From the NCBI GenBank assembly GCA_017524595.1, contig JAFXVI010000061.1, positions 1 through 34,092 of the forward strand: a stretch of DNA of 34,092 bases, given 5' to 3'. The stretch comes from Lachnospiraceae bacterium (GTDB lineage Bacteria; Bacillota; Clostridia; Lachnospirales; Lachnospiraceae). The translations under genes were made by a program, and so were the position numbers. Within the stretch, counting starts at the first letter, position 1; each line of letters opens with the position of its first letter. The notes under the pieces are model-generated. The model did no database searches. It saw only the letters and a program-made list of their open reading frames with translations, and was not told where the DNA came from. Shown here piece by piece: positions 19,765 to 24,844 of this stretch.

Positions 19765-21210
19765 ATGTACAGGATAGATTATGATAACCCGGTAAAGGTA
19801 CATTTTATCGGAATAGGTGGTATAAGCATGAGCGGTCTGGCAGAAATCCTGCTTGACCGCGGCTTTACGATATCAGGTTCGGACAGAGCGGAGTCAGAGC
19901 TTACGAAGCAACTTGAAGATAAGGGGATCACGGTATATTACGGGCAGTGTGCCGGAAATATCAGGGATGATGTTGAACTTGTTGTATATACGGCAGCCAT
20001 AAGGGAAGATAATGAGGAATTCATCGAGGTTAAGAGACGCGGCATTCCGATGCTCACCCGTGCGGAACTTCTGGGACAGATAATGAAGAACTATGAGGTG
20101 GCCGTCGCTGTTTCGGGTACCCACGGCAAGACTACGACCACATCAATGATAACAGATATCCTTATATCGGCAGGTCTTGATCCGACGATATCGGTAGGCG
20201 GAATGCTCAAGGAGATAGGCGGAAATATCCGTATAGGACGTTCCGGGTATTTTGTAACGGAAGCGTGTGAATATACCAACAGTTTTTTAAGCTTTTATCC
20301 GACAGTCGGTGTGATACTCAATATAGAAGAAGACCATCTGGATTTCTTTAAGGATATAAATGATATAAGGGCGTCATTTAAGAAGTTCGCAGAGCTTTTG
20401 CCTGATAATGGACTGCTTATAATAAATGCTGATATTAAGGATCATAAGGAAATAACGCAAGGGCTTAAGTGCAAGGTTGTTACAGTATCGTTTACGGAAG
20501 GCGCCGGCGCGGATTATACAGCCTGTGGTATAAGTTATGATGAACTGGGATGTGCATCGTTTGAGGTCTGTGCGGCAGGCAGAGAGGCAAGAAAGATAAC
20601 CCTTCATGTTCCGGGAGCGCATAATATTGGGAATGCGCTTGCAGCGATAGCGCTTGCGGATCATTTAAATATCGACAGTTTTGCTGTTACGCAGGGACTA
20701 ATGAATTTCCATGGGACCGACAGACGTTTCCAGTATAAGGGAAGCCTAAGGGCAGAAGAAGGAAAAGGGATAACGGGAGTCTGTACCGGACAGGAGGGCG
20801 GAACAGAAAACAGTGTGACCGTAATAGATGATTATGCCCATCATCCTACCGAAATACGAGCGACTCTGAATGCCGCGGCCAATTATCCCCATAAACGCGT
20901 GATCTGCGTATTCCAGCCACATACTTATACTCGCACCAAGGCGTTCTTTGATGATTTTGTGGATGCTCTGACCTTGGCTGATGTGGTCGTGCTGGCAGAG
21001 ATCTATGCCGCCAGAGAGACCGATACGCTTAACATGAGTTCATCGCTCATCTGTGAGGAACTTAAGAAGAAAGGAAAGGAAGCATATTATTTTTCCACAT
21101 TTTCGGAGATAGAAGATTTTCTTCAAAAAAAATGTTTGAGCGGCGACCTGTTGATAACTATGGGGGCCGGAGATGTAGTAAAAATCGGCGAAGAGCTCTT
21201 TTCAAAATAA
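19765..21210 (+). CDS. murC: UDP-N-acetylmuramate--L-alanine ligase
   Basis: A 481-residue cytosolic ligase adding the first amino acid of the peptidoglycan stem peptide. The N-terminal Rossmann-like domain has HFIGIGGISMSGLAEIL; the ATP-binding motif GTHGKTTTTSM lies near residues 117-127; EACEYTNSFLSFYP, NIEEDHLDFF and GAHNIGNALAAIA mark the central domain; DDYAHHPTEIRATLNAA and VFQPHTYTRTKAFFDDF mark the C-terminal domain. Length is slightly above the usual ~450-460, with a small extra stretch (about residues 332-352) before the DDYAHHPTE motif. Followed immediately by the DnaA-box region. Confidence 0.97.
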   Translation: MYRIDYDNPVKVHFIGIGGISMSGLAEILLDRGFTISGSDRAESELTKQLEDKGITVYYGQCAGNIRDDVELVVYTAAIREDNEEFIEVKRRGIPMLTRAELLGQIMKNYEVAVAVSGTHGKTTTTSMITDILISAGLDPTISVGGMLKEIGGNIRIGRSGYFVTEACEYTNSFLSFYPTVGVILNIEEDHLDFFKDINDIRASFKKFAELLPDNGLLIINADIKDHKEITQGLKCKVVTVSFTEGAGADYTACGISYDELGCASFEVCAAGREARKITLHVPGAHNIGNALAAIALADHLNIDSFAVTQGLMNFHGTDRRFQYKGSLRAEEGKGITGVCTGQEGGTENSVTVIDDYAHHPTEIRATLNAAANYPHKRVICVFQPHTYTRTKAFFDDFVDALTLADVVVLAEIYAARETDTLNMSSSLICEELKKKGKEAYYFSTFSEIEDFLQKKCLSGDLLITMGAGDVVKIGEELFSK

Positions 21211-21372
21211 TTATCCACAATATCCACAACCTGCGTTTGGAAGTTATCCCAAATCAAGTTGTGGATTTTTAAGTTGACGTAATAAGTTACCTGCAAAATA
21301 AAGAATCTTTATTTTGTCGCTTAAGGTAGGAATACATAACAAAAAACGTACATAGTTTCTGTTTTATCCACA
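21211..21372 (+). promoter_or_regulatory. Cluster of DnaA boxes between murC and the primosome genes
   Basis: Two perfect TTATCCACA 9-mers occur at 21211-21219 and 21364-21372. ATATCCACA (21220-21228) abuts the first and matches eight of nine. TTATCCCAA (21244-21252) and, on the opposite strand, AAATCCACA (21260-21268) match seven of nine. All five lie in 162 bp directly upstream of a DnaD-domain gene and a helicase-loader gene. DnaA is the initiator and also a transcription factor; a cluster here suggests DnaA-controlled expression or a DnaA reservoir. The sites are seen directly; the function is inferred. Confidence 0.65.
21274..21316 (+). promoter_or_regulatory. AT-rich palindrome overlapping a candidate promoter
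   Basis: CAAAATAAAG (21294-21303) and CTTTATTTTG (21307-21316) form a perfect 10-bp inverted repeat with a 3-nt centre. TTGACG (21274-21279) lies 17 nt before AATAAA (21297-21302), so the palindrome would cover the -10 and start site of this possible promoter. It could be a repressor operator, or a weak terminator of murC. The region lies between the DnaA boxes. Confidence 0.4.
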
Positions 21373-21438
21373 GTAAAAAAACGCCTTTTCTCAGTGTGCC
21401 GTTGGGCAAAAGATTTTGTTTTCTTACGTATCCCGGTG

Positions 21439-21447
21439 TGATAGAAT
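21439..21447 (+). promoter_or_regulatory. Extended -10 promoter of the DnaD-domain gene
   Basis: TGATAGAAT is an extended -10 element (TG-n-TAGAAT) with no good -35 at 17 nt. Transcription would begin near 21454, about 40 nt before the start codon at 21495 and about 80 nt downstream of the last DnaA box. Confidence 0.4.
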
Positions 21448-21494
21448 ACATATCATCGAGGGGAAAGGGGAATATATGGCGGCAGGTGTTTTTG

Positions 21495-22634
21495 ATGGGA
21501 AATATTACTCTGTGCAAGGATTATTCTTCTGAGATAACGATCGTAAGCAACAGCTTTATAGACCGTTATATGAATGATGCCAATGATGCTCAGATAAAGA
21601 TATATCTATATTTGTTGAGACGTATAAACGCACATGACCCCCTTACGGTAGGAGATATAGCAGATCGCTTTAACTACACCGAGAAGGATGTCATGAGGGC
21701 GCTTAAATACTGGGATAATAAGAAGGCTGTCTCCTTAAGCTTTAATTCATCGGGAAGCCTGACCTGTATACAGATGCTTGACCTTAAGGATGCGGGTGAT
21801 ATGGAAAATAATAAGGACAGCGATAAGGCAGGGATCCTTTCTGAATCCTTTAATGTATCAAGCGGCGTTTTGCTTAGTGAACAGACAACGGATACATTGA
21901 TACACGAGGCGGATAAGGGAAGAATACAGATGGTTGATTTTTCCAATAAAAAGAATTATACACCGCAGGAACTGATGCAGTTTAAGAGTGACCCGGAGAT
22001 ATCGCAGCTTCTGTTCATTGCAGAAGCTTATCTTGGAAAGACGCTCAGGCCGGATGAGATTTCATCGATTCTGTTTATGTATGATTCATATGGTTTTTCT
22101 GCCGAGCTTATCGAATACCTCATAGAGTACTGTGCGAATAATAAGAAGACCAATATAAAACACATTGAAACGGTGGGGCGCACCTGGGCTGAGACGGGGA
22201 TCAGTACGGTAGACGAGGCCAAGGCAAGAACCTCAAATGCACCAAAGGAAGTCTATGATGTGTTCAGGGCTTTCGGGATAAGCGGGCGTAACCCGATAGA
22301 GCCGGAAATATCATACGTCATCAAGTGGAACAGGGTATACGAATTTTCCATCGATATTATCTGTGAGGCATGTTCAAGGACCATAATGAGCATCCACAGT
22401 GCCAGCTTTGAATATGCCGATACTATCCTGACCAACTGGAGAAACGCAGGAGTTAAGCGGCTTGAAGATATAGCAAAGCTTGACGCGGAACATGTAAAAT
22501 CAGCAGAGAATAAGACTATGGCAAAGAGCCAGGGTAACCGGTCTTCCGGCAGGAAACAGGGCGGCAGTTTCGGAGGCTTTGAGCAGCGCAAATATGATTA
22601 TTCACAGCTTGAAAGAGACGCATTGATGAATTAA
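21495..22634 (+). CDS. DnaD-domain replication protein
   Basis: A 379-residue protein. The N-terminal region (MGNITLCKDYSSEITIVSNS, then FIDRYMNDANDAQIKIYLYL) leads into a winged-helix-like part with LTVGDIADRFNYTEKDVMRAL. Two DnaD/DnaB-type helical domains follow: one around YTPQELMQFKSDPEISQLLF to HIETVGRTWAETGI, the second around PKEVYDVFRAFGISGRNPIE to ILTNWRNAG. The tail is Lys/Gly/Ser-rich and likely disordered. DnaD-family proteins help load the replicative helicase in primosomes. I start at ATG 21495 by family N-terminus; GGCAGG is 8 nt upstream. A short overlapping frame precedes it. It is followed by the helicase loader. Confidence 0.9.
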   Translation: MGNITLCKDYSSEITIVSNSFIDRYMNDANDAQIKIYLYLLRRINAHDPLTVGDIADRFNYTEKDVMRALKYWDNKKAVSLSFNSSGSLTCIQMLDLKDAGDMENNKDSDKAGILSESFNVSSGVLLSEQTTDTLIHEADKGRIQMVDFSNKKNYTPQELMQFKSDPEISQLLFIAEAYLGKTLRPDEISSILFMYDSYGFSAELIEYLIEYCANNKKTNIKHIETVGRTWAETGISTVDEAKARTSNAPKEVYDVFRAFGISGRNPIEPEISYVIKWNRVYEFSIDIICEACSRTIMSIHSASFEYADTILTNWRNAGVKRLEDIAKLDAEHVKSAENKTMAKSQGNRSSGRKQGGSFGGFEQRKYDYSQLERDALMN

Positions 22635-22676: not shown

Positions 22677-23651
22677 ATGTCGATTTCCAATGCACAGTAC
22701 GATGAGATAATGCGTACTTATGAAGACAATCAGAACAGGAACAGACATCTTGTCGAGCAAAGGCGCGAAGAGGTGTATGAGAAGATACCGGAATATAAGG
22801 CACTTGATTCCATGATAGCTGACATATCCTTAGAACAGGGCAGGAAGCTAATCGCAGGGGACGTAAGTGCCTTAGCTTCGTTAAGGGACAAGATGAAAGG
22901 CATAACGGAGCGTAAGAAGGAGCTGCTATCATCAGGCGGATTTTCGCAGGATTACCTTGATCCTGTTTATACCTGTCCTATATGCAAGGATACGGGATAT
23001 GTGGATAATCAGAAATGCCGCTGCTTTAAGCGGGCAATTATCAGCTATCTCTATGAACAGTCAAATATAGAGAAGGTTCTTAAAGAGGAGAATTTTAATA
23101 CTCTTTCCTATGATCATTATGATGACACCGAACTTCCGGTAATGGAGAAGATAATCGAGAGTTGCAAGGCGTATGTGAGTGATTTTGATGAGACTTATGA
23201 GAACCTTCTGTTTTACGGGGGAGTTGGTGTAGGCAAGACTTTTCTGACCAACTGTATAGCCTATGAACTGATAAACAGCGGCCATTCGGTTATTTACTTT
23301 ACAGCATTTCAATTATTTGATACACTTGCGAAGTATGCGTTCCGGTCGGGCGATGTGAGTGAGGATATAGGGCGTGTCCATGAGGATATTTTTGAGTGCG
23401 ACCTGCTGATAATCGATGACCTTGGGACCGAGATCACCAATCAGTTCGTAATGAGCCAGCTTTTTCTAATAATCAATGAGCGTGATAACAGGAGAAAGTC
23501 AACCATAATCTCAACCAATCTGTCCATTGAGGAGCTTTCGGAGCGTTATTCCGAAAGGACTTTTTCAAGGATATATGGCAAATACAAAATGATAAAACCA
23601 AACATTAAGGATCTAAGAGTGAAGATCAAAAGATCTTCCGGCAGAAAGTGA
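22677..23651 (+). CDS. dnaI: Replicative helicase loader, DnaC/DnaI-type AAA+ ATPase
   Basis: A 324-residue protein. The N-terminal part is helical (helicase-binding), followed by a four-cysteine zinc motif at C100, C103, C114 and C116 (CPICKDTGY...KCRC). The AAA+ domain has Walker A YGGVGVGKTFL at residues 180-190 and Walker B DLLIIDDLGTE, with sensor I in IISTNLS. It would place the replicative helicase on DNA. The start follows AAGGAG at good spacing; upstream in-frame codons have no support. A perfect DnaA box on the minus strand sits in the coding region at 23000-23008, probably by chance. Confidence 0.93.
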   Translation: MSISNAQYDEIMRTYEDNQNRNRHLVEQRREEVYEKIPEYKALDSMIADISLEQGRKLIAGDVSALASLRDKMKGITERKKELLSSGGFSQDYLDPVYTCPICKDTGYVDNQKCRCFKRAIISYLYEQSNIEKVLKEENFNTLSYDHYDDTELPVMEKIIESCKAYVSDFDETYENLLFYGGVGVGKTFLTNCIAYELINSGHSVIYFTAFQLFDTLAKYAFRSGDVSEDIGRVHEDIFECDLLIIDDLGTEITNQFVMSQLFLIINERDNRRKSTIISTNLSIEELSERYSERTFSRIYGKYKMIKPNIKDLRVKIKRSSGRK

Positions 23652-23659
23652 GGAAATGC

Positions 23660-24844
23660 ATGCCAAATCGCGAAGAAAAGCGCAACCTTGAATCCATACC
23701 TGTAGGTTCCCTGAGGATGATACCGCTTGAAGGATGTATCGGACTGGGACGTAAGATCGATGAATACCTGGTTAAGTGGAGGACCGAGCGGGAGAATGAA
23801 CATAAGAATTCCCTGGCTTTTGCGGGATATCAGAAGGATTCATATATCCTGGATGCTATGATAAGCCGTTTCGGGACGGGAGAAGCCAAGGGAGTTATCA
23901 AGGAATCAGTCCGTGGAAGCGATCTGTACATCCTTGTCGATATCATGAATTACAGCCTGACCTATAAGCTGTGCGGAAATGAAAATCACATGTCTCCTGA
24001 CGATCATTATCAGGATCTTAAGAGGATAATAGCGGCTGTCGGCGGCAAGGCAAGAAGGATCACGGTCATAATGCCGTTTTTATATGAGAGCCGTCAGCAT
24101 AAGAGGAGTGCAAGGGAGTCGCTTGACTGCGCTCTGGCCCTTCAGGAAATGGTCAGGATGGGCGTTGACAATATCATAACATTTGATGCTCATGATCCAC
24201 GCGTTCAGAATGCGATCCCGCTGTCAGGCTTTGAGACAGTAAGGCCGGCATATCAGTTCGTAAAGGGACTTTTGGGAAATATTGATGACCTTAAGATAGA
24301 TGCAGAGCATATGATGATGATAAGTCCGGATGAAGGCGGAATGGAGAGAGCAATATATCTTGCCAATATGCTCGGACTTGACATGGGAATGTTCTATAAG
24401 AGGCGTGATTATACCAAGATCGTTAACGGACACAATCCGATAGTCAGTCATGAGTTCCTTGGTACTTCGGTAGAAGGTAAGGATGTGCTTGTGGTTGACG
24501 ATATGATCTCATCCGGTGACAGTGTGCTGGATGTTGCAAGACAACTTAAGAAGCGCAAGGCAAAGAGGATATTTATAGCTGCGACCTTCGGCCTGTTTAC
24601 AAGAGGACTTGAAGTGTTTGATACGGCTTATAAGGAAGGGATCATCGACAGGATACTGACAACCAATCTCGTATACCAGATGCCTGAGCTGCTTGAGAGG
24701 GAATATTATATAAGCTGCGATATGAGCAAGTATATCGCATATATCATAGATACTCTCAACCATGATACATCGATCTCGGATCTTCTTGATCCCTGCGAGA
24801 GGATACACAGTCTTGTTTCCAAATATAATGCGGAAAGAAGCTGA
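23660..24844 (+). CDS. prs: Ribose-phosphate pyrophosphokinase-like protein, long divergent form
   Basis: A 394-residue protein, longer than the usual ~310-320 residues of PRPP synthetase. The PRPP-binding loop is VLVVDDMISSGDS; the catalytic flexible-loop motif is present as FYKRRDYTKI; the segment VIMPFLYESRQHKRSARESL corresponds to the family's Arg-Gln-Asp region but is altered, and FDAHDPRVQNAIP replaces the canonical DLHA-type motif. Both ends carry extra sequence. It probably makes PRPP from ribose 5-phosphate and ATP, but the changes leave a specialised substrate or regulatory role open. ATG 23660 follows AGGA; GTG 23648, overlapping the loader stop, is an alternative. Confidence 0.75.
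   Translation: MPNREEKRNLESIPVGSLRMIPLEGCIGLGRKIDEYLVKWRTERENEHKNSLAFAGYQKDSYILDAMISRFGTGEAKGVIKESVRGSDLYILVDIMNYSLTYKLCGNENHMSPDDHYQDLKRIIAAVGGKARRITVIMPFLYESRQHKRSARESLDCALALQEMVRMGVDNIITFDAHDPRVQNAIPLSGFETVRPAYQFVKGLLGNIDDLKIDAEHMMMISPDEGGMERAIYLANMLGLDMGMFYKRRDYTKIVNGHNPIVSHEFLGTSVEGKDVLVVDDMISSGDSVLDVARQLKKRKAKRIFIAATFGLFTRGLEVFDTAYKEGIIDRILTTNLVYQMPELLEREYYISCDMSKYIAYIIDTLNHDTSISDLLDPCERIHSLVSKYNAERS

Follow-up and report, generated by a model that had tools for sequence, protein, structure and literature searches.

A conserved array of DnaA boxes between murC and dnaD-dnaI as a probable DnaA-responsive control region

Genes and sequence elements of the murC-dnaD gap

The window, i.e. 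the whole stretch of 34,092 nucleotides analysed here, is one contig of a Lachnospiraceae draft genome (G000; 1.73 Mb, 110 contigs, 59.9% complete). Five genes are aligned on its plus strand in the order ahcY, murC, dnaD, dnaI and a prs-like gene (Table 1), the last being probably in the same operon as dnaD-dnaI. The helicase-loader ATPase gene also matches the DnaI and DnaC models, in both cases below cut-off. The frame listed for dnaD opens at GTG 21396, but many dnaD homologues align only from about residue 34 of that frame, and AGGTG, a ribosome-site-like word, precedes ATG 21495. Judged from these alignments and this word, the start is most likely ATG 21495 and not GTG 21396; with this start, the non-coding gap between murC and dnaD extends from 21211 to 21494. 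Within the gap, AAGGGGAATA (21465-21474) precedes the probable ribosome site of dnaD and hardly varies among 11 close relatives. A frame of 18 codons that opens at ATG 21476 runs into the start of dnaD, and its ATG is not conserved.

Table 1. Genes and sequence elements of the window
Feature	Position	Strand	Basis or remark
murC	19765..21210	+	TIGR01082 481 bits, above cut-off; stop codon abuts first DnaA box
DnaA box 1a, exact TTATCCACA	21211..21219	+	mean column identity 0.98, 9 close gaps
DnaA box 1b, ATATCCACA, 8/9	21220..21228	+	abuts 1a, 9-bp pitch; mean column identity 0.99, 9 close gaps
Hairpin (likely murC terminator), arms 21222-21230 and 21258-21266, T run 21266-21270	21222..21270	+	inverted repeat, folding, covariation
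Weak box-like word TTATCCCAA, 7/9	21244..21252	+	in hairpin loop; all 9 close gaps keep TTATC
Reverse box-like word AAATCCACA, 7/9	21260..21268	-	overlaps hairpin 3' arm; TGTGGATTTTT invariant, 9 close gaps
Motif TTGACGTAATAAGTTAC	21274..21290	.	between the two arrays; nearly invariant in 9 close relatives
DnaA box 2, exact TTATCCACA, promoter-proximal	21364..21372	+	invariant in 9 close gaps; 75 bp before extended -10
Extended -10 element TGATAGAAT	21439..21447	+	conserved position in relatives; TGnTATAAT-like
dnaD-like (DnaD domain protein)	21495..22634	+	PF07261 116 bits, TIGR01446 71 bits; likely start ATG 21495
dnaI/dnaC-like helicase-loader ATPase	22677..23651	+	NF005304 350 bits, above cut-off; start inferred from homologues
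prs-like phosphoribosylpyrophosphate synthetase	23648..24844	+	NF005299 594 bits

Five DnaA-box-like sites had been predicted in this gap, two exact, one with 8/9 matches abutting the first, and two with 7/9 matches including one in reverse, and all five were found. The reverse 7/9 site belongs to one arm of a hairpin, the opposite arm of which takes in most of box 1b. The tandem pitch of 9 bp, the hairpin and the promoter spacing are additions to the earlier description. Box 2 lies 153 bp downstream of the first box of the abutting pair, which itself starts right at the murC stop codon. The whole window contains three exact boxes on both strands, the third being located within dnaI (23000-23008, minus strand), against a mean of 0.22 in dinucleotide shuffles of the window, none of 100 of which reached three; two exact boxes in one gap exceed chance. 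When one mismatch was allowed, 18 sites were detected in the window as opposed to 9.5 expected, and 1 of 100 shuffles reached 18; this excess is only mild, and lone 8/9 or 7/9 words therefore mean little. A reverse 8/9 word, TTATCAACA (21149-21157, minus strand), belongs to the murC coding sequence and lies about 62 bp 5' of box 1. Its recurrence in many relatives is due to a coding constraint, as the word specifies part of a conserved LLIT stretch, and it was rejected as a regulatory site. In many same-genus gaps, a TTNAC[AG]TAA core, which lies within the 21274-21290 motif, is found about 63 nt after the murC stop; nine dnaA loci, each about 4.3 kb long, were also examined for TTNAC[AG]TAA, and the raw count of loci containing it is five.

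A hairpin behind murC

Based on the inverted repeat, folding and covariation, the hairpin overlapping box 1b is likely to be the murC terminator. Of 58 distinct gaps, 47 have CCAC/GTGG in the arms of the best inverted repeat detected in their first part, and fold z-scores ranged from -3.8 to -6.7 in all five loci folded. Across the 51 loci that differ in their arms, 124 of the 204 cells at flank positions 1-4 of the arms are paired, as opposed to a mean of 57 with shuffled partners (sd 7, maximum 81 among 2000, relatedness being ignored in this null). A generic terminator scan did not call the hairpin of the window, the loop of which is long, and no Rfam match was detected in 20900-21800 at E up to 1. 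The DnaA-box core stays while the stem flanks change in a compensating way, suggesting that both DNA-level and RNA-level constraints operate on this segment.

Conservation within the genus and among close relatives

The same-genus search with the dnaD protein covered 37 genomes including our own, of which 35 matched and 30 loci were fetched. Except for L020 and L023 (no murC hit; start not located), 28 gaps, including that of the window, were counted. An exact box is present in all 28 and the tandem pair, defined as no more than 2 mismatches in 18, in 26, the first array starting 0-3 nt past the murC stop in most of them. Among nine close relatives, the box columns are 0.98-1.00 identical, as opposed to 0.69 in the remaining gap. 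L020 carries ahcY upstream of dnaD together with a degenerate array, and boxes are present in L023.

The wider set of relatives included 42 loci, and the order murC, dnaD, dnaI, prs-like is kept in 39 of these; the other three (L056, L065 and L070), in which murC is located elsewhere, were left out of the gap counts. Nine of the 39 gaps are identical to same-genus ones, and L031, our own genome again, was dropped. Both an exact box and a pair were each found in 35 of the 39, while L066-L069 have neither despite keeping the gene order. Loss of the boxes from close relatives with the same gene order, which would speak against the original prediction, is thus not seen in the genus; the comparison of gaps gave a mixed result farther out, pairs being absent from 4 of 39 wider-set gaps and from 9 of 42 genomes of the order with murC upstream. 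One record, L044, is titled Muribaculaceae and yet has a dnaD almost identical to that of the Blautia-labelled L041; it is probably a mislabelled draft.

Conservation across the order and class

A dnaD match was detected in all 58 genomes of the order searched (18 families, our own included), and 56 of 57 loci gave usable upstream stretches, L118 being dropped at a contig end. A pair was found within 480 bp of dnaD in 34 of the 56 genomes, belonging to 11 of 18 families (f1, f2, f3, f4, f5, f6, f10, f12, f16, f17 and f18), and an exact box in 37 upstream stretches. Shuffling each stretch 20 times gave 0.005 exact boxes per stretch, and pairs never arose. As controls, the next 480 bp upstream contained one pair and seven stretches with an exact box (n=55), and the first 480 bp of dnaD contained no pair and six stretches with an exact box (n=56). 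No pair was detected in 22 of 56 genomes, nor in seven families (f7, f8, f9, f11, f13, f14 and f15); several families are represented by a single genome.

The pairless genomes comprise 9 of the 42 with murC upstream, five of these nine having a gap no longer than 79 bp, and 13 of the 14 in which murC is not located there. Since murC precedes 33 of the 34 pairs and nearly all loci without it are pairless, the distribution largely follows one clade and its gene arrangement. Four loci carry a pair before dnaD without murC there. In L056, L065 and L070, murC is located beyond prs on the opposite strand, no box exists within 150 bp after it, and a dehydrogenase-like gene, as read by eye, lies upstream of dnaD; in the fourth, L091, a divergent gene is located upstream. 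About 300 bp before dnaD, L056 and L065 also contain TTCGACA words between the two DnaA arrays; these words resemble Spo0A boxes.

In the search of the class, 67 of 69 genomes matched and the best 30 loci were examined, with the dnaD start approximated for L176 and L178. Among these best 30 of 67, the 26 loci from other orders contained neither a pair nor a plus-strand box; one reverse box each was found in L160, L167, L174 and L175, being exact in L167.

The 18-base tandem word was also searched with up to two mismatches in the 58 genomes, giving 183 matches as opposed to 51 for the reversed control. Among the matches listed, 16 of 21 exact tandem pairs genome-wide are located just upstream of dnaD; in an earlier set of eight genomes, 13 of 23 tandem matches were at dnaD, and in our own assembly the pair of the window is the sole match. 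A spacing of 9 bp accounts for 114 of 160 plus-strand box pairs within 40 bp. Intergenic clusters with 4-5 DnaA boxes also recur in family f18 beside a GntR-like regulator gene, as read by eye (L142, 1868-1990; L151, 1863-1985; L147, 1923-2045). In two families, DnaA-box clusters (L141, 1928-2042; L148, 1936-2079) lie several hundred bp away from an isopropylmalate-synthase-like gene, which is the same in both and was again read by eye.

Spacing between the boxes and the predicted promoter

From the position of the extended -10 element, transcription would start near 21454, and the last box of the window ends about 82 bp before this putative start, 5' of the promoter. A generic promoter scan called no promoter in the gap of the window, which a weak -35 would explain. 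For analysis of spacing, removal of duplicates from 124 upstream stretches left 114, of which 72 contain both a box and an extended -10. The distance from the last box to the extended -10 is 73-76 bp in 40 of 72 and 84-86 bp in 17 of 72 (85 or 86 bp in 13, 84 bp in 4), together 57 of 72; the remaining 15 distances range from 62 to 204 bp, mostly in other families (f2, f16 and f17). The two classes are separated by about one helical turn, and on the DnaD protein tree, constructed for 56 of the 57 loci and including several rows with long branches, about six switches between the classes are required, six being forced by well-supported branches. We read the two classes as a preference for one helix face, based on their narrowness and on the tree, with the caveat that 84 equals 75 plus 9, so that the 9-bp pitch may partly mimic the classes. 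Of five periods tested on the distinct box-to-promoter distances, none reached significance. For phasing between the two arrays, R over the distinct spacings was 0.42 at 10.5 bp and 0.50 at 11 bp; as it was 0.40 at 9 bp too, no helical phasing of the arrays is claimed.

Discussion

Taken together, the gap is probably a conserved DnaA-responsive control region of dnaD-dnaI(-prs), from which DnaA would regulate the dnaD-dnaI promoter. As expected for a DnaA-controlled promoter, consensus-matching boxes are located near the promoter, at a preferred distance in 57 of 72 gaps, and are conserved together with the target gene (28/28 genus gaps, 34/56 genomes of the order). In 13 relatives, the C-terminal part of DnaA is a domain IV whose signature is of the DH[ST]T type, which we count in favour of this control; the dnaA gene is absent from the assembled part of our own genome. 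The original prediction that DnaA controls the helicase-loading genes fits the persistence of the boxes in the genus, the spacing, and the association of the pairs with dnaD and not with murC in L056, L065 and L070, while some relatives with the same gene order are pairless. Counted against DnaA control are the 22 of 56 pairless genomes of the order, the lack of an exact box in L066-L069, the 15 of 72 distances that fall elsewhere, the non-significant periodicity, the generic scan without a promoter, and the exact boxes in the control stretches (7/55 and 6/56).

In the proposed mechanism, DnaA would bind two arrays: the tandem pair beside murC and, closer to the promoter, a single box or a pair at about -90 (or -100) from the putative transcription start. 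The promoter-proximal array may act from a preferred helix face on RNA polymerase at the extended -10, with possible cooperation or looping between the two arrays. The amount or nucleotide state of DnaA would then set the supply of DnaD/DnaI, which would load the helicase after opening of the origin by DnaA. An upstream position of the boxes fits activation or looping better than simple blocking, and as the boxes are located upstream of the promoter without covering it, we lean slightly toward activation as the sign of control.

As an extension of this mechanism, box 1b might serve both as a DnaA site on DNA and as an arm of the murC terminator on RNA, so that DnaA bound to the abutting pair would, as a roadblock, gate read-through from the cell-wall gene murC into dnaD-dnaI, with box 2 acting on the local promoter, a dual role that we consider doubtful. 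If true, one element of about 280 bp, retained in much of the order, would allow DnaA to tie both the synthesis of peptidoglycan precursors and the supply of helicase loader to initiation.

The main rival to DnaA control is titration, which the original prediction had also offered, or control of the DnaA state, in which the arrays soak up or reset DnaA and lie before dnaD by happenstance. Several strong boxes are indeed gathered in one place outside oriC, relatives have other box clusters without an obvious promoter role, and deletion of six clusters of B. subtilis advanced initiation, according to the available part of a study on them (PMC5295017). A sink requires, however, neither a set distance from a promoter nor a set gene partner, while the exact pairs that gather at dnaD (16 of 21 among the matches listed) lie at very different distances from dnaA. 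We regard titration as an unlikely main function of the arrays.

Another DNA-binding protein might use the 9-bp repeats, alone or together with DnaA, since abutting boxes would leave little room for two DnaA molecules and the second conserved motif at 21274-21290 suggests a further factor. In contrast, the word of the gap equals what we take to be the DnaA consensus, its exact copies are present in 8 of 9 dnaA loci of relatives, and it varies mainly at the first three bases and the last base (the CCAC core being a condition of this count), making another protein quite improbable.

The locus is probably not a chromosomal origin. Several DnaA boxes within a short AT-rich non-coding stretch are what an origin, main or secondary, would offer, but GC skew is positive on both sides of the gap in the window without a switch, and its sign is kept across the gap in 33 of 39 relatives, the skews of the other six being 0.10 or less. 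In four of five single-contig genomes, a dnaA gene with its own boxes lies at a distance of 44 kb to 1.26 Mb (in the fifth, G086, no DnaA above cut-off was detected); in all nine drafts that have dnaA, it is on another contig. Adjacency to dnaA is not universal for oriC; even so, with no skew switch and a distant dnaA, an origin at this locus is very improbable.

That the words are nothing but the stem of the murC terminator, box-like by chance or habit, is hardly tenable: box 1b and the reverse box do form a hairpin with a T run and covarying flanks and 33 of 34 pairs do lie behind murC, but boxes 1a and 2 are conserved outside the stem, the box core is constant where the flanks vary, and L056, L065 and L070 have their pairs at dnaD, where murC is missing, and none behind murC itself.

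DnaA-controlled promoters are already known; the layout observed here is new. The B. subtilis dnaB-dnaI operon has been reported to be under the influence of DnaA; the proposed control resembles it in that DnaA would act on helicase-loading genes in a member of Bacillota, and is set apart by its genes, dnaD-dnaI in a different neighbourhood. The available part of a review on DnaA as a transcription factor lists the autoregulated dnaA-dnaN, E. coli nrdAB and gua, and C. crescentus dnaB (helicase) and dnaQ; the words dnaD and dnaI were looked for in its text and not found (PMC8203912). As in those systems, boxes precede a replication gene and DnaA is thought to set transcription; unlike them, the target here is dnaD-dnaI, the boxes form abutting 9-bp tandem pairs in two arrays, one array is located in a terminator-like hairpin, and conservation is order-wide (PMC8203912, in part). 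The datA locus of E. coli soaks up or resets DnaA and titration has been considered for the B. subtilis clusters outside oriC, likewise several non-coding DnaA boxes, but in contrast to these, as far as described in the part of the source at hand, the present arrays have a fixed gene partner and two preferred promoter distances (PMC5295017). Read-through into datA from a tRNA operon, described in an excerpt of another report (PMC10950094), is a distant parallel to the box array at a terminator. DnaA-box clusters in a clostridial genome are also known from oriC of C. difficile, but the present locus shows no skew switch and dnaA lies elsewhere; the accessible portion of that origin study discusses the DnaD homologue CD3653 and mentions no boxes before it (PMC7561715). 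Among titles and the starts of abstracts in the open-licence literature, no report of DnaA boxes before dnaD in this order was found.

With an array kept 5' of dnaD-dnaI in 11 of the 18 families sampled, DnaA would regulate the step that comes next in its own pathway. To our knowledge, the matching of helicase-loader supply to initiator activity has been little studied outside E. coli and B. subtilis. The order consists of gut and rumen bacteria, and culturable members such as Roseburia faecis (L063) would offer a test system for such a link between the initiator and the supply of its helicase loader.
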